Positions 1 to 5,305 of a stretch of DNA of 8,721 nt are shown piece after piece. The notes below the pieces were generated by a model, which saw only the letters and a program-made list of their open reading frames with translations, did no database searches and was not told the DNA's origin. Position numbers and translations under genes: made by a program. Location of the stretch: NCBI GenBank assembly GCA_019751475.1, contig JAIENH010000239.1:1-8721 (forward strand), written 5' to 3'. The stretch is from Cyclobacteriaceae bacterium. GTDB lineage: Bacteria > Bacteroidota > Bacteroidia > Cytophagales > Cyclobacteriaceae. Positions within the stretch are counted from its first letter, which is position 1. Every line of letters starts with the position of its first letter.

Positions 1-11
1 ACCTAATCTAG
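1..11 (+). CDS. 3' tip of a probable upstream GIY-YIG nuclease copy (partial)
   Basis: The first eleven bases are identical to 472-482, the last codons (Leu-Ile-stop) of the complete GIY-YIG gene in this window, and the identity continues without a break into the repeat that follows. The simplest reading is that a second nuclease gene ends here and lies mostly left of the window. The alternative is that only the repeat, with a few 3' codons, was copied; the window cannot separate these. Confidence 0.4.
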
Positions 12-15
12 CTAA

Positions 16-41
16 CCTCCTACGCCTTAAGGCTTCGGAGG
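16..41. repeat. Near-palindrome P1, copy 1
   Basis: Outer arms CCTCC/GGAGG flank a three-base internal mismatch segment (TAC opposite TTC, with a central A-T pair), then a perfect 10-base core GCCTTAAGGC. The copy at 487-512 is identical. It can fold as a hairpin in single-stranded DNA or RNA. Confidence 0.85.
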
Positions 42-69
42 CCAAGTCGAATCCCTCTCTCTCCGCTTC

Positions 70-97
70 ACCCTCCGTAGCCTTGGCGAAGGAGGGT
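70..97. repeat. Near-palindrome P2, copy 1
   Basis: Outer arms ACCCTCC (70-76) and GGAGGGT (91-97) flank the triplets GTA and GAA and a core GCCTTGGC (80-87). The plan is the same as in P1, with CCTCC arms, a 3x3 mismatch segment and a GCC/GGC core; the triplets are the reverse complements of those in P1. Copy at 541-568 differs only at base 78 (T to C). Confidence 0.85.
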
Positions 98-110
98 TCA
101 CTTATCCATA

Positions 111-128
111 GCCCCGATTTGTCGGGAC
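111..128. repeat. Short hairpin P3, copy 1
   Basis: CCCGA (113-117) pairs with TCGGG (122-126) around a four-base loop. One outer pair (112/127) is mismatched here but is restored in copy 2 (582-599), where the stem is seven pairs long. Confidence 0.75.
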
Positions 129-245
129 GAAGGAGGGTTTACTTATATAGCTTTACCGAAGATATTCAACGCCAAAGGCTTCGGAAATCAAGGAAGGGTT
201 CACCCAACACTTAAAACCATGCAACCGTCATCCATCTTAGATTCA

Positions 246-482
246 ATGTACTTTGTCTACATCTTACTCTGTTCTGATGGAACATATTATACAGGCTGTA
301 CAAGCGATTTGGCTGAAAGACTTACTCGTCATGAAAAAGGTTATGTCGAGTATACTCAATCAAGGCTTCCTGTTGAGTTGGTCTATTTTTCGAGCTTTAG
401 GAATCAGCAAAAAGCATTCAGTTTTGAAAAGTATTTAAAATCTGGATCAGGAATAGCGTTTAGAAACAAACACCTAATCTAG
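246..482 (+). CDS. Small GIY-YIG domain endonuclease
   Basis: This 78-residue protein is a stand-alone GIY-YIG catalytic domain, the size of the COG2827/UPF0213 (YhbQ-like) group; members are predicted DNA nucleases with mostly unknown biological roles. Residues 3-5 (FVY) and 15-17 (YTG) occupy the two signature triplets, followed by Arg25 in the LAERL helix, His29, and Glu61 in FEKYLKSGSG, the expected metal-binding glutamate. The domain looks catalytically complete. An in-frame ATG at 219 would add nine residues, but the family normally begins at the M-Y-x-V-Y-I strand, so I chose 246; neither start has a clear ribosome binding site. The gene lies between two copies of a palindrome-rich direct repeat, and its last codons are inside the 471-base repeat period. 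It converges on the permease gene at 680. Function beyond nuclease is inference. Confidence 0.88.
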   Translation: MYFVYILLCSDGTYYTGCTSDLAERLTRHEKGYVEYTQSRLPVELVYFSSFRNQQKAFSFEKYLKSGSGIAFRNKHLI

Positions 483-486
483 CTAA

Positions 487-512
487 CCTCCTACGCCTTA
501 AGGCTTCGGAGG
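487..512. repeat. Near-palindrome P1, copy 2
   Basis: Identical to 16-41: CCTCC/GGAGG arms, TAC/TTC internal triplets and the GCCTTAAGGC core. It begins four bases after the nuclease stop codon. Confidence 0.85.
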
Positions 513-540
513 CCAAGTCGAATCCCTCTCTCTCCGCTTC

Positions 541-568
541 ACCCTCCGCAGCCTTGGCGAAGGAGGGT
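541..568. repeat. Near-palindrome P2, copy 2
   Basis: ACCCTCC/GGAGGGT arms with a GCCTTGGC core, as at 70-97 with one substitution (C at 549) in the internal triplet. Confidence 0.85.
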
Positions 569-581
569 TCACTTATCCATA

Positions 582-599
582 GCCCCGACTTGTCGGGGC
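582..599. repeat. Short hairpin P3, copy 2
   Basis: GCCCCGA (582-588) pairs with TCGGGGC (593-599) around a CTTG loop, a perfect seven-pair stem. It is stronger than copy 1 because of one base change at 598. Confidence 0.8.
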
Positions 600-633
600 G
601 AAGGAGGGTTCACTTATCCGTAGCTTTAACGAA

Positions 634-660
634 GATCTCCCCCGCTTAGCTCCTGAGATC
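634..660. repeat. Weak stem at the end of repeat copy 2
   Basis: GATCTC (634-639) and GAGATC (655-660) form a six-pair stem with a 15-base loop. The corresponding part of copy 1 (161-189) keeps only a few of these pairs, so structure here is poorly conserved. Confidence 0.45.
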
Positions 661-679
661 AAGAGAGGGTTTACGGCTG

Positions 680-1909
680 TTACTCAAATCTGAGCGACTC
701 TATTGGATCTAATTTGGAAGCTTTATAAGCTGGATAATATCCTGATAACAATCCGACTGCAATACAAACCACCATGCCCACGGTCATCCACAACCATGGC
801 ATGACGAAGCCATCAATGCCGATTGCGCCCGCGATTACATTACCAATAAGGATACCCAGTATTACACCTGCGACACCTCCAATTAAACAAACCACAATCG
901 CCTCAAGAACAAATTGCTGACGGATACGCAGTGGTGTAGCGCCCAGTGCCTTTCGCACTCCGACTTCACGAGTCCGCTCCGTAACTGACACCAGCATAAT
1001 ATTCATCAATGCAATGGCAGCACCCAGCAATGTAATGAAGCCTACACCAAAACCACCAAAGCGCAAAGCGCTGGTGATTCCTTCCAACTGCTCGCCAAGG
1101 GTCTCGCTCTTATCCAATTCAAACGAGTTTGGATTTCCAATCTGATCTCTGCGGATGGTGCGCATCAGTCCGGTGGCCTCGCCCATTGCCATGTCCATCT
1201 TGGTTACATCGGTCACGCCTACCGCCAGTTCGTAATCCAATCCCCTTCCAGAAGCAAGTTGGTTAGCAACTATAACTGGAATAAACACCATGTTATCGTA
1301 GTTGTCTTCGGCCAATTCACCCTTCTCTTTCAAAATACCTATTACCCTGAACTGAGTTCCTTTAAATGAAATTTCAGAGGCGATGGGATCTTCATTGTCA
1401 TCGTAGATGGCCTTGACAACTTTACTTCCCAACACAACCACCTTAGTACCATATTGAATCTCTAAGGGAGAGAAATTTCTTCCCTTGTCAATGTTTAACC
1501 CTTTGATGCTTAAGTACTCTTCATTCACGCCCGTTACTCCAATATTTGGATTTGTCTTCTTCGATGCGTGCTTCACTTCTGCAATGCCGGTAAGGTCAGC
1601 CGAAAGACTTATGGAGGCCGGGAACTTGTACAAGTCGATGAAGCGCTGTACTTCGTTTAACTGAAGTGATTTATAGACCTTCTCCTTGATGCCCTGGCGA
1701 CTGGAGTTGCGATTGCGCTTGGAGCGAATGTCAAACGTATTGACCCCGAGTGAAGAAAGGCTTTCAGACACTGAGTACTCAATCCCGTCTATGGCCGTAA
1801 GGATGCCCACCAGCGAGGTGATGCCAATGGTAACAATCAGTGCCGTGAGCACCGAGCGAAGGAGATTGGCTTGCACCGAACGGAGGCCTTCTTTTAGATT
1901 TTCGAGCAT
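680..1909 (-). CDS. MacB/FtsX-family ABC transporter permease
   Basis: The 409-residue protein has the MacB/LolC-type permease plan. It has a cytoplasmic N-terminal helix (NLKEGLRSVQANLLRS), a membrane segment at about 19-41, a large periplasmic core domain at about 42-283 (MacB_PCD type), and then three membrane segments at about 284-308, 335-362 and 370-393 (FtsX type). The conserved cytoplasmic coupling segment ERTREVGVRKALGA lies at 311-324, and the C-terminus YYPAYKASKLDPIESLRFE is typical. Such permeases dimerise and work with a separate ATPase in mechanotransmission: efflux of peptides or drugs, or lipoprotein release. The ATPase gene is not adjacent here, so the partner and substrate are unknown. 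Length is normal for the family (about 400). The ATG at 1909 follows an AT-rich leader with a candidate -7 element. The gene converges on the GIY-YIG cassette, only a few bases from repeat copy 2. Confidence 0.93.
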   Translation of the reverse strand: MLENLKEGLRSVQANLLRSVLTALIVTIGITSLVGILTAIDGIEYSVSESLSSLGVNTFDIRSKRNRNSSRQGIKEKVYKSLQLNEVQRFIDLYKFPASISLSADLTGIAEVKHASKKTNPNIGVTGVNEEYLSIKGLNIDKGRNFSPLEIQYGTKVVVLGSKVVKAIYDDNEDPIASEISFKGTQFRVIGILKEKGELAEDNYDNMVFIPVIVANQLASGRGLDYELAVGVTDVTKMDMAMGEATGLMRTIRRDQIGNPNSFELDKSETLGEQLEGITSALRFGGFGVGFITLLGAAIALMNIMLVSVTERTREVGVRKALGATPLRIRQQFVLEAIVVCLIGGVAGVILGILIGNVIAGAIGIDGFVMPWLWMTVGMVVCIAVGLLSGYYPAYKASKLDPIESLRFE

Positions 1910-1945: not shown

Positions 1946-2016
1946 CCCGCTTTTGCGTTTCGGAACTGGACGGGAATGATCATTATTTTGTTTCTTTGAC
2001 AATGGTACCTCTAACG

Positions 2017-3273
2017 ATGCGATTCGCCCTTTTGTTTTGCTTTTTATTCGTGGGCTTTGCCGCCCAGGCGAATTACATTTTCATCCCTATGGATGGCAAG
2101 CAGGTGAACCATCTAAAAGCCTATGGCATAGCATATTGGGCACTAAAGAAAGATACTGAAGTTGACTGGCTACTTAACTACAAAGGCGGCAGTTTCATGT
2201 TCAAGTATCATCCCGTCTTTCAGAATGAATTGGTAGTACGAGGTGTGAGCTATGAAATCATCTCCGATGCACAGGCCAACCAGATTCTCACCGAGATCGC
2301 CAGTCCGGCCTTGAACTACGACATCATGAAGCTGGAGAAGTTCCCCAAGATTGCCGTGTATTCTCCCAAATCAAAACAACCTTGGGACGATGCCGTGACC
2401 CTCGTACTCACCTATGCCGAAATTCCTTACGACATCATTTTTGATGACGAGGTGATGAAGAGTGAACTGACCAAGTACGATTGGCTGCATTTGCACCACG
2501 AAGACTTTACCGGTCAGTACGGGAAATTTTATGGTCAATACGCTAACATGCCCTGGTACGTAGAGCAGCAGAAAGAGGCTGAAGATATGGCACGCAAGCA
2601 TGGCTTCTCAAAAGTGTCGCAGCTAAAGCTGGCTGTAGCTAAACGCATAAAAGAATTTGTGGCGGGAGGAGGTTTTCTTTTTGCCATGTGCTCCGCTACC
2701 GATTCGTTCGATATTGCTGTCGCAGCAGAAGGTACAGACATCTGCGAACGCATGTACGATGGCGACCCGGCTGATCCGCGCGCGCAGGAAAAACTGAATT
2801 TTGAGCAGACCCTCGCCTTCACCAATTTTCACCTGGTGCGCGACCCGTACCAATATGAATTTTCAGACATTGATAACAACGCACCTGACCGGGGCTTGCG
2901 GCAAGACAATGATTATTTCAATGTCTTCGAGTTCTCAGCCAAATGGGATCCTATTCCATCCATGCTTACGCAGAATCACACGAAAGTGATCAAAGGATTT
3001 TACGGACAGACAACCGGCTTCAAGAAGCAATTGATCAAACCCGATGTGGTGATCATGGGTGAAAACAAACAAATCAATGAAGCGAAGTACCTTCACGGAG
3101 TATTTGGCAAAGGATTTTGGACGTACTATGGTGGTCATGATCCGGAAGACTACCAGCATACTGTGTATGAAGAGCCAACCGATTTAAATCTTCATCCAAA
3201 CTCGCCCGGCTTCCGGCTGATTTTAAATAACGTTCTCTTTCCGGCAGCGAAGAAGAAGAAACAAAAAACGTAG
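2017..3273 (+). CDS. Conserved exported protein, possible class-I GATase-like fold
   Basis: A 418-residue secreted protein. Residues 1-18 (MRFALLFCFLFVGFAAQA) are a signal peptide, with mature protein from Asn19. In-frame starts at 2002 (ATG) and 1996 (TTG) would only lengthen the leader; 2017 gives the cleanest one. From memory, close relatives in Bacteroidota are sometimes labelled 'asparagine synthetase B'. That name does not fit: there is no N-terminal Cys2 nucleophile, no PP-loop, and the protein is exported. Visible conserved-looking blocks are a YSPKSKQPWDDAV strand-turn, WLHLHHED at 156-163, a glycine-rich strand ending in a cysteine elbow (GGGFLFAMCSATDSFD, 217-232, Cys225), and GGHDPEDYQH at 372-381. 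The GGG-strand-Cys and the GGHDP block recall ThuA/DUF4159-like or class-I glutamine-amidotransferase-like folds, but this is inference. The tail is lysine-rich. The FG-GAP/TIM-barrel gene follows after 31 bases, a likely operon. Confidence 0.85.
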   Translation: MRFALLFCFLFVGFAAQANYIFIPMDGKQVNHLKAYGIAYWALKKDTEVDWLLNYKGGSFMFKYHPVFQNELVVRGVSYEIISDAQANQILTEIASPALNYDIMKLEKFPKIAVYSPKSKQPWDDAVTLVLTYAEIPYDIIFDDEVMKSELTKYDWLHLHHEDFTGQYGKFYGQYANMPWYVEQQKEAEDMARKHGFSKVSQLKLAVAKRIKEFVAGGGFLFAMCSATDSFDIAVAAEGTDICERMYDGDPADPRAQEKLNFEQTLAFTNFHLVRDPYQYEFSDIDNNAPDRGLRQDNDYFNVFEFSAKWDPIPSMLTQNHTKVIKGFYGQTTGFKKQLIKPDVVIMGENKQINEAKYLHGVFGKGFWTYYGGHDPEDYQHTVYEEPTDLNLHPNSPGFRLILNNVLFPAAKKKKQKT

Positions 3274-3304
3274 TCTGCCCTTTCGTTTGACTCATCACCC
3301 ACCT

Positions 3305-5305
3305 ATGATAAAGTCGATTTACTACCCTCTTTGCTTATTGATCAGTTTGCAGAGTTGGGCACAGACCAATTGGAAGCATCTATCTACTGAAAAGGGTTCT
3401 CTTCCATTGCCATGGAAAAGTACGCAGCAGACTTCATTAGTTATTATCGACTTCACCAATGATGGTGTTTCTGACTTTGTTATTGGATGTCGTCAGCAAG
3501 CTCCTGCCCTGGTTGGCTATTCATTTGATGGCAAGCAATGGCAGCGATATGTGTTGGAAAATGAATTTCTAACCATTGAAGCTGGTGGCACTGCCTTTGA
3601 TATTGATGCCGATGGCGATGGCGATCAAGATCTGGTTTTTGGCGGTGACTGGCAATCCAATACAGTGTGGTGGTGGGAAAATCCATATCCCAACCTGGCT
3701 AAAGAAAAATCATGGAAGCGGCACGTTGTGAAAAACTCCGGGACCAATCAGCATCATGATCAGATTTTTGGTGACTTCAAGCAAACTGGAAAAGCGCAGC
3801 TTGCTTTTTGGAACCAGGGAAGTACAACACTCTTCCTGGCGGAGATTCCTGAAAACGTACAAACTGCCGGAGAGTGGAAAAGAGAAGTTGTTTTCAGCGG
3901 GCAGGCCGGGCAGAACGCGCCCTATGCCGAGGGTGTCGCTTCAGCGGATATCGATGGAGATGGATATGCAGACCTATTGGCGGGCAACTACTGGTTTCGC
4001 TATGAAAAAGGTAAAGGCTTTCAACCGATTCGCATTGGCGAAATTGGCGGCCGGATTGCAACTGGCAAATTCAAAGCTGGAAAAAGTCTACAAGTTGTGA
4101 TTGCACCGGGAGATGGCTCCGGTCCTGTAACCTGGTACGAAAACATCGGTGAGATAATTGACCCCAAATCATGGAAAGGTCATAATCTTGCTGGCAGAGA
4201 TTTCATCCATGGTCATGCACTGGAAGTAGCTGACATCAATAGCGATGGCAACCTCGACATCTTTGCGGCTGAGATGGCCAAGTGGACGGAAAGTAAACCG
4301 GATACTGACAATCCGAAAGCAGAAGCACTGATTTTTTATGGAGATGGCCTGGGCAATTTCCGCAAGGAAGTATTTCAAACAGGGTTTGATTTTCACGAAA
4401 CAAAGCTGGCCGACATTGATGGCGATGGTGACATTGACATTATCAGCAAACCGTACAATTGGAAAGCACCGCGCCTGGACATCTGGCTTCAGGGAGGCAC
4501 TGGCAAACGTGTACCTGCAATCAGCACTTATCTGAACGGTCATGTGGGCCTCGAACTCTACAGCCTCCGAGAAGAATTAAAAAAAGATGTGCCGAGTAGT
4601 TTTAGAAAAATTGCGGCTATGGGTATTAAAGAAGTTGAAGTGCCGGGCTTTTACGGATTATCACCTGCAGCCTTCAAAGCCGAACTCATCAAAGCAGGCC
4701 TTACGCCTACGAGCGCGCTTTTTTCTTTCGAATTATTCCGCGATAGTCTCAGCTCCATCATTAAAAGTTGTAAGGCGCTGGGTGTTACGCAGGCCGGCAC
4801 CGCCTGGATTCCTCATGGCAAAACATTTACACGCGAAGATGCCCTCACCGCCATTGATCTTTTCAATCGAGCGGGCGCTTCGCTCAAAGCCGCAGGCATT
4901 CGTTTCTTCTACCATCCACATGGTTACGAATTTGTGCCCTCTCCTGAGGGAACACTGTTTGACTTAATGGCAACCAAGATGAAACCTGGCCTGGCTGACT
5001 TTCAGTTGGATGTGTTCTGGGCCGTGCGGGGCGGGGCCGACCCTACGCTACTGTTAAAAAAGTATCCCGGTCGGTTTATATCGCTTCATGTAAAAGATGT
5101 TGAAGTGGGATTATCCACCGGAGATGCACAAGGTGGCGCCCCGGAAGAGACCAGCGTAATCATTGGCAAAGGTCAGGTTGATTTTAAAGCAGTCTTCAAG
5201 GCCACTATCCAAAATGGCATCAAACATTTCTACATTGAAGACGAGCATCCAAAAGCGATCGAGCAGATTCCGCAGTCGTTGGCTTATATTCGGTCGCTGA
5301 AATAG
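3305..5305 (+). CDS. Exported FG-GAP repeat protein fused to a xylose-isomerase-like TIM barrel
   Basis: The 666-residue product starts with a signal peptide (1-20, ending SLQSWAQ). Residues about 30-395 form a VCBS/FG-GAP beta-propeller-like region with calcium-binding repeats of the DxDxDGxxD type at about 99-109, 215-223, 310-318 and 370-378, and a degenerate one (DFTNDG) at 49-54. From about 413 to the end lies a sugar phosphate isomerase/epimerase (AP_endonuc_2) TIM barrel beginning GHVGLELYSLREEL. Candidate metal and active-site residues are His537/His539 in YHPHGYEF, Asp569 in QLDVFW, His595 in HVKD, and the acidic cluster IEDEH at 644-648. The barrel alone equals a full-length secreted isomerase of this family (about 250 residues here), so this is a fusion, not a read-through remnant; no frameshift is visible. 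A TTG at 3287 could add six residues but the ATG at 3305 gives the better signal peptide. A periplasmic or surface sugar-modifying role is plausible; the substrate is unknown. It ends four bases from miaE, convergent. Confidence 0.9.
   Translation: MIKSIYYPLCLLISLQSWAQTNWKHLSTEKGSLPLPWKSTQQTSLVIIDFTNDGVSDFVIGCRQQAPALVGYSFDGKQWQRYVLENEFLTIEAGGTAFDIDADGDGDQDLVFGGDWQSNTVWWWENPYPNLAKEKSWKRHVVKNSGTNQHHDQIFGDFKQTGKAQLAFWNQGSTTLFLAEIPENVQTAGEWKREVVFSGQAGQNAPYAEGVASADIDGDGYADLLAGNYWFRYEKGKGFQPIRIGEIGGRIATGKFKAGKSLQVVIAPGDGSGPVTWYENIGEIIDPKSWKGHNLAGRDFIHGHALEVADINSDGNLDIFAAEMAKWTESKPDTDNPKAEALIFYGDGLGNFRKEVFQTGFDFHETKLADIDGDGDIDIISKPYNWKAPRLDIWLQGGTGKRVPAISTYLNGHVGLELYSLREELKKDVPSSFRKIAAMGIKEVEVPGFYGLSPAAFKAELIKAGLTPTSALFSFELFRDSLSSIIKSCKALGVTQAGTAWIPHGKTFTREDALTAIDLFNRAGASLKAAGIRFFYHPHGYEFVPSPEGTLFDLMATKMKPGLADFQLDVFWAVRGGADPTLLLKKYPGRFISLHVKDVEVGLSTGDAQGGAPEETSVIIGKGQVDFKAVFKATIQNGIKHFYIEDEHPKAIEQIPQSLAYIRSLK

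Follow-up and report, generated by a model that had tools for sequence, protein, structure and literature searches.

Small GIY-YIG nuclease genes beside tRNA and tmRNA genes of Bacteroidota: putative free-standing homing elements

Introduction

Why does a very small GIY-YIG nuclease gene lie with hairpin-forming DNA in a tandem repeat at the start of a Cyclobacteriaceae contig, and what is the partner of this nuclease? The stretch in question (hereafter the window; 8,721 nucleotides of contig JAIENH010000239.1, assembly GCA_019751475.1, designated G000:C714:1-8721) belongs to an assembly of 813 contigs and 3.93 Mb. A first-pass annotation of these letters took the hairpin palindromes for the possible partner. 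The constant partner is a tRNA or transfer-messenger RNA (tmRNA) gene, which was missed because the RNA gene lies off the window contig. We favor, at a probability of roughly 0.6, the reading that the window unit is a selfish homing element that would break a tRNA or tmRNA gene and be copied into the cut during repair, and that it represents free-standing homing elements specialized on such genes, with tandem arrays and nuclease-less relatives. The anatomy of the units, their association with RNA genes and their presence or absence at a given site are direct observations.

The Window Array

As the first-pass annotation had described, the window opens with a direct repeat (1-146 and 472-617, 97% identity, spacing 471) with one complete small GIY-YIG gene per period. 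The parts of the array and the adjacent gene are as follows.

3..11, + strand: 3' end of a further upstream nuclease copy (codons L, I, stop), in register with 474-482; contig start
16..41, + strand: hairpin before the partial tRNA copy, unit 1 (fold 14-42, -5.4 kcal/mol, z -1.74)
47..66, + strand: partial tRNA-Ser copy (T-loop to 3' end), unit 1 (20/20 against L078)
70..99, + strand: hairpin behind the tRNA tail, unit 1 (-7.6 kcal/mol, z -2.85)
112..138, + strand: hairpin-like repeat between tRNA tail and nuclease gene (z -1.08, weak)
219..482, + strand: small GIY-YIG nuclease gene, likely start 246 (Pfam PF01541, catalytic residues, AlphaFold2 model)
487..512, + strand: hairpin before the partial tRNA copy, unit 2, a copy of 16-41 (fold 485-513, z -1.74)
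518..537, + strand: partial tRNA-Ser copy (T-loop to 3' end), unit 2 (20/20 against tRNA-Ser(cga))
541..612, + strand: hairpins behind the tRNA tail, unit 2 (541-570, z -1.62; 580-612, z -3.09)
680..1909, - strand: MacB/FtsX-like permease, outside the element (Pfam MacB_PCD and FtsX)

Window base 1 is contig base 1, so that the repeat boundary once placed inside the nuclease 3' end is the assembly edge. An array that starts at a contig end, in a genome of so many contigs, might itself be a misassembly. The same architecture and tandem arrays of near-identical nuclease units recur in independent assemblies, some of them single-contig (G024, locus L060; G191, locus L191), which refutes this explanation for the phenomenon and leaves an artifact with hardly any probability. 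The proposal that the nuclease and its hairpins are duplicated together is supported, and comparable units form tandem arrays in other genomes.

The first-pass annotation had overlooked the two 20-base tRNA tails (47-66 and 518-537), which match the 3' end of tRNA-Ser(cga) from a genome of the same genus (L078) without a mismatch and are the best matches to this tRNA in the whole G000 assembly. No full tRNA-Ser(cga) gene was found in that assembly (21 tRNAs; the tRNA-Ser genes seen are gga and tga). In the same-genus relative G007 (L309), tRNA-Ser(cga) starts 64 bp past the stop of the orthologue of the window permease (79% identity over residues 264-409). Judged from the tails and from this permease neighbor, tRNA-Ser(cga) is very likely the gene to which the window array belongs. 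The orientation of the array relative to the permease is opposite to that of tRNA-Ser(cga) in G007, and the window contig ends there. There is a precedent for local inversion: with both flanking genes comparable (L159, L160 and L161 among the loci), tRNA-His is inverted between the same flanking genes in G061, G059 and G014 and not in G021, G027 and G015.

The claimed hairpin block stands in part. Folded as single-stranded DNA (ssDNA), 70-99 and 580-612 beat shuffled sequences; the other folds are weaker. Hairpin-like sequence is seen by eye at the position equivalent to 16-41 in L037, L038 and L041. Beyond the permease, 1999-5302 encodes two proteins, one of 424 aa that has no match in Pfam and, behind it, one with FG-GAP repeats and a xylose-isomerase-like TIM barrel.

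The Nuclease

The open reading frame (ORF) at 219-482 (87 aa), the sole complete ORF of the repeat, matches the Pfam GIY-YIG family with an E-value of 5.9e-13. The true start is likely ATG 246, because the other 14 proteins of a 15-protein alignment align from there and because model confidence (pLDDT, predicted local distance difference test; mean 92) rises there, the first ten residues averaging 63 and later ones reaching 91-98. Tyr14, Tyr24, Gly26, Arg34, His38 and Glu70 are invariant in the alignment, and the protein has the GIY-YIG fold with the catalytic Tyr, Arg and Glu expected of a free-standing homing endonuclease. The ratio of nonsynonymous to synonymous substitution rates (dN/dS) is 0.10-0.35 in five of 12 pairs tried, two of these five resting on 3-4 changes; of the remaining pairs, two have a single synonymous change, three are saturated and two contain an N.

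The nearest solved structures to the window nuclease are UPF0213 proteins and Slx1, a resemblance that would also suit an Ssn-like enzyme. The Ssn family, known from Neisseria, comprises GIY-YIG enzymes that cut ssDNA at a genome-repeated sequence and modulate transformation. For an Ssn-like nuclease the tRNA-like hairpins would be ssDNA sites, hairpins and cloverleaf DNA being natural ssDNA folds, and its role would lie in DNA uptake or genome dynamics. The tight tie to functional RNA genes, the tandem arrays and the empty sites described below suggest mobility and not scattered sites, and this explanation appears rather improbable.

Linkage to tRNA and tmRNA Genes

Seven contigs of G000 carry small GIY-YIG matches, and five of them have a same-strand tRNA gene directly upstream:

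C766: tRNA-Ser(gga) upstream; nuclease with an internal deletion
C798: tRNA-His upstream; three nuclease copies
C583: tRNA-Pro upstream
C774: tRNA-Pro upstream; nuclease broken
C781: tRNA-Val upstream

The other two are the window, cut at the contig start, and C758, without a tRNA gene upstream.

Among 58 genomes (G000 and 57 relatives), a GIY-YIG protein search at E 0.001 gave a match in 35. Same-strand tRNA or tmRNA genes lie within 500 bp of 75 of the 113 small GIY-YIG loci, with the nuclease downstream of the RNA gene in 55 cases and upstream in 20; none of the 113 has an opposite-strand tRNA or tmRNA neighbor within that distance. The small GIY-YIG genes are thus co-directional with many kinds of tRNA genes and with tmRNA. 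When loci are classed by best-scoring model, linkage is found for 75 of 93 members of a linked subgroup, for none of 18 generic GIY-YIG proteins of ~100 aa and for neither of two undecided loci; because the subgroup models were seeded by hand, the label-free count is 75/113. The 18 unlinked members of the linked subgroup include L039 and L040, which lie behind tmRNA by sequence, L089, with tRNA-like remnants, and eight (the window among them) whose contig begins no more than 250 bp away. In G007, the protein search overlooked a GIY-YIG array downstream of tRNA-Val(tac) (L287) that a profile detected, so that the nuclease counts are underestimates.

The association extends through the phylum. 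The linked-subgroup model matches 95 of 148 genomes, and 25 of 29 loci from the best-scoring genomes are linked to tRNA or tmRNA. With the single window protein as query, the best 80 of 118 named relatives include 60 that have an RNA gene on the same strand no more than 450 bp upstream (41 tmRNA, 12 Ser, 4 Ala and 3 others), and no opposite-strand RNA gene lies within 700 bp in any of the 80; further relatives have tmRNA at 464-810 bp (four), an RNA gene recognized by Rfam (two) or a T-arm remnant (two). Across 136 loci, the gap between nuclease and upstream RNA gene is 0-465 bp (median 88). A nuclease gene outside an intron and near an RNA gene is what a free-standing homing endonuclease would show, the RNA gene being the putative target.

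Two arrangements deserve separate mention. L111 holds a tRNA-Pro(tgg)-clade nuclease with a tRNA-Pro tail behind a tRNA-Pro(tgg) - tRNA-Arg(tct) pair, so that the tail mismatches the nearest tRNA. In L096 and L129, an open frame runs from inside the tRNA-Arg(ccg) gene into the nuclease, and tRNA sequence might be translated there.

Other hosts and carriers were considered and rejected. Introns or other structured RNAs do not account for the loci: in 44 sources, tRNA, tmRNA and one Flavo-1 RNA were the only matches to attain Rfam thresholds. As for carriage by phages or plasmids, the pattern-based scan of viral contigs found no relative, and the 23 phage and 18 plasmid records matched by tblastn are all below 60% identity (20 of the 23 phage records listed); none of the matches listed is named as Bacteroidota, three phages having no named host.

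Anatomy of the Elements

Elements occur on both sides of RNA genes. In type A, the order is RNA gene, usually a terminator-like hairpin (by eye), nuclease and partial 3' copy of the RNA gene; in type B, a partial 5' copy is followed by nuclease and RNA gene. Of the 37 loci where an RNA gene follows the nuclease on the same strand, 12 have an ORF that stops exactly at tRNA positions 8-10. In L072, the downstream tRNA copy itself bears a D-loop hairpin.

When a partial copy is defined as an exact match of at least 12 nt to the linked RNA gene across the nuclease, copies are present at 76 of 160 linked loci, compared with 19 of 800 other-isotype comparisons. By RNA type the frequency is 72/116 for tRNA and 4/44 for tmRNA; L039 and L040, which have no ARAGORN call, stand outside these counts, and L039 has a tail. 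Most downstream copies reach the RNA 3' end (51/58) and most upstream copies start at the 5' end (18/20). In many named Bacteroidota (L210-L284), examples being Roseivirga pacifica (L225), Marinilabilia salmonicolor (L242) and Winogradskyella (L244 and L251), a relative of the window nuclease follows tmRNA, and a partial copy is mostly absent. Such tmRNA-linked nucleases are perhaps old or domesticated insertions.

The partial copies are frequently interrupted. Forty-four insertions were found in 40 of 78 scored copies, and 34 of them fall in D-, anticodon or T-loops, with loop limits as we defined them, whereas 21 are expected if positions are uniform over the matched span. A perfect stem of at least 6 bp is present in 30 of the 44 insertions, against 145 of 2200 letter-shuffled ones. 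The partial tRNA-Glu copies of L083 and L088 have much longer loop insertions (99 nt in L088), which are bounded by inverted repeats and are not short hairpins. The arrays L016 and L060 each have a last terminator unlike those inside the array, as expected if that terminator is the native one.

A partial tRNA copy could also be the att scar of a decayed tRNA-targeted integrative element of which only the GIY-YIG gene is left. At the loci read, units are roughly 320-470 bp, stand in tandem and have a single GIY-YIG ORF with no room for more; no integrase gene is present. Moreover, each nuclease lineage keeps its own RNA target. Decay of integrative elements is therefore a very improbable source of these units.

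Nuclease-Less Units and Hairpin Families

Partial copies are not confined to nuclease genes. Within 400 bp, copies accompany 11 of 21 tRNAs in G000 (control 1/210) and 16 of 39 in G007 (control 3/390). As judged by reading the stretches and by profile scan, no nuclease is present in the stretch read for 7 of these copy-bearing tRNAs in G000 and for 11 of those in G007, and in the latter genome tRNA-Gly(ccc) and tRNA-Arg(ccg) are each followed by three tandem nuclease-less units (L297, L302). A three-hairpin T-loop module with changing stems is common to His-linked units and nuclease-less Gly units (L024, L297).

These units would suit a passenger model, in which copies and hairpins arise by recombination or replication slippage at tRNA genes independently of the nuclease, whose gene merely rides along and profits from the tRNA transcript. 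That model has more trouble with G064, a distant genome without any GIY-YIG match, where none of the 20 tRNAs examined (of 43) has a partial copy (control 0/200); in addition, the specificity of each lineage for its RNA gene and the invariant active sites fit targeting better. We consider the passenger model unlikely, and prefer targeting of the RNA gene by the nuclease.

A search of the host genome, as the first-pass annotation had suggested, separates the nuclease from particular palindromes. The window hairpin pattern has three exact matches in G000, only one of them at a GIY-YIG gene, and the other nuclease lineages bear different hairpins. A TCCCGA...TCGGGA hairpin has 26 matches in this genome, 13 of which are within 150 bp of a tRNA (by eye; two of the 13 overlap at one spot), and a CCTGCC...GGCAGG hairpin has five. 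Spread of the window palindromes in the manner of REP-associated tyrosine transposases (RAYTs; REP, repetitive extragenic palindrome) was rejected on account of this rarity. A REP/RAYT-like logic in the sense of a nuclease accompanied by nuclease-less units may still apply; the palindromes are not the constant partner. Contig C590, which bears a lone copy of the window hairpin, also holds the Flavo-1 RNA (L021 4153-4241).

Lineages, Gain and Loss

Nuclease lineage and RNA identity agree. In a tree of 97 proteins (96 labeled, 15 RNA labels), 31 label changes are needed, whereas 1000 shuffles gave a mean of 71 and a minimum of 64. The clade of the window has a near-identical junction, AAG/AGG/TAG followed by TCGAATCC, behind tRNA-Ser and (L039, L040) behind tmRNA, and the tRNA-Ser and tmRNA genes at this junction both bear the T-arm GAGGGTTCGAATCCCTC. 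The tmRNA-linked L039 stands among Ser-linked proteins in the leaf order of the tree. The shared junction and T-arm, together with this placement, fit a move of the window lineage between non-homologous RNA genes that share a T-arm.

The tRNA-His locus reveals gain and loss at a single site. Of 25 tRNA-His loci, inspected by eye and by profile scan, five have a nuclease gene, two (L162, L163) end with the contig inside the nuclease, three have decayed remnants (L155 and L160 by profile, L164 by eye) and 15 have no nuclease. The five occupied loci were selected for bearing a nuclease, one of them (L090) shortened to 70 codons, and one nuclease-free locus (L157) ends 124 bp past the tRNA. Empty sites at orthologous loci, which the first-pass annotation had proposed to look for, do exist: in G021, G027 and G015 both genes flanking tRNA-His have the G000 arrangement and there is no nuclease. 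The distance from tRNA-His to the aligned downstream gene is about 46-180 bp in these three genomes, compared with 1.1 kb, filled by three units, in G000. One genus thus displays occupied, decayed and empty versions of this site between shared flanking genes, and element-free alleles of one locus are a property expected of homing elements.

Proposed Mechanism

In the favored homing model, the nuclease would cut its own RNA gene in or near the loops, the T-loop in the window lineage. The element-bearing copy would be used for repair, whereby the unit is inserted, and the RNA gene would stay whole as the element carries the missing half. Re-cutting and unequal repair would generate tandem arrays. 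The partial copy would likely be made uncuttable or non-functional by the hairpins in its loops, and nuclease-less units would be deletion derivatives.

Several observations weigh against this model. The proteins are only ~80-90 aa, and no Pfam domain other than GIY-YIG is present in the window protein, the one scanned. The class-wise linkage depends in part on the choice of seeds (13 of 15 linked-subgroup seeds linked by ARAGORN, five of five generic seeds unlinked). Seven loci assigned to the linked subgroup genuinely lack linkage (L043, L044, L045, L062, L081, L124, L142), 12 of the best 80 named relatives show no RNA gene nearby, 84 of the 160 linked loci have no copy at the 12-nt threshold and tmRNA-linked relatives mostly have none. 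Vertical descent at fixed loci would also give agreement between lineage and RNA, so that the label-change count alone is no proof of targeting. The intact tRNA beside each element keeps the loop sequence and yet apparently escapes cutting; according to the SegB paper (PMC13096335), free-standing GIY-YIG enzymes typically cut the donor with low efficiency. Finally, cutting, homing or mobility and the role of the hairpins are steps that we infer.

A wider version of the homing model is put forward tentatively. It sees phylum-wide cut-and-rescue elements of Bacteroidota, in which each GIY-YIG lineage would cut one RNA gene in the cloverleaf loops, restore the missing half, immunize the leftover copy by loop hairpins and support nuclease-less satellites. 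If true, tRNA and tmRNA genes throughout the phylum would be a dedicated niche of very small selfish nucleases, and the partial tRNA copies, hairpins and local tRNA-gene inversions of Bacteroidota would be accounted for. It would also provide a compact, testable model of how an essential gene can house a selfish element without the death of the host, and would yield ~80-residue nucleases whose targets are predicted lineage by lineage.

Comparison With Known Systems

REPs and bacterial interspersed mosaic elements (BIMEs) are palindromes associated with RAYT transposases, whose nuclease is of the Y1 HUH type. Like these systems, the window type combines a nuclease gene with hairpins, and nuclease-less units stand elsewhere. 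Unlike them, its nuclease is GIY-YIG and not Y1 HUH, its units hold tRNA pieces and its units cluster at tRNA genes. A TnpA-like Y1 HUH nuclease is absent from the window protein, which has only GIY-YIG, and abundant dispersed palindromes of the flanking type are absent from the 3.93 Mb of G000. Chemically distinct from REP/RAYT, the cut-and-rescue elements would possibly be its tRNA-specific counterpart. Ssn nucleases are likewise small GIY-YIG proteins linked to sequence repeats; the partner sequence of the window type is instead a functional RNA gene.

Integrase-borne elements at tRNA and tmRNA genes (PMC9897764) resemble the window type in that one intact and one partial RNA gene bound the element. 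The window-type unit differs in its size of a few hundred bases, in having the GIY-YIG gene only and in its use of both the 3' and 5' sides of the RNA gene.

A close parallel is SegB of phages T4 and T6, a GIY-YIG homing endonuclease that is likewise free-standing. The SegB study (PMC13096335) reports that a tRNA-nuclease segment amplifies in tandem by homologous recombination in a manner that depends on SegB, an amplification that its authors ascribe to short homologies between the tRNA 5' region and the segB 3' end, and that SegB and tRNA genes co-localize significantly in phages. A T4 review (PMC2988022) places segB at a tRNA intergenic site and states that free-standing enzymes cut away from their own gene. 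SegB and the window elements share a GIY-YIG gene outside introns, a position beside tRNA genes of many isotypes and tandem amplification. Whereas SegB is encoded by a phage gene, the window-type genes are chromosomal, widespread in Bacteroidota and small, with one lineage per RNA gene; tmRNA genes are among their neighbors, and partial tRNA copies that carry loop hairpins often border the elements. Among the matches listed in open PMC papers, a body that leaves preprints and most subscription papers outside, no description of chromosomal tRNA-linked GIY-YIG elements was found. The elements would work like a free-standing homing endonuclease; their chromosomal niche at tRNA and tmRNA genes throughout a phylum, the duplicated half of the gene and the hairpins in its loops are likewise absent from the matches listed.
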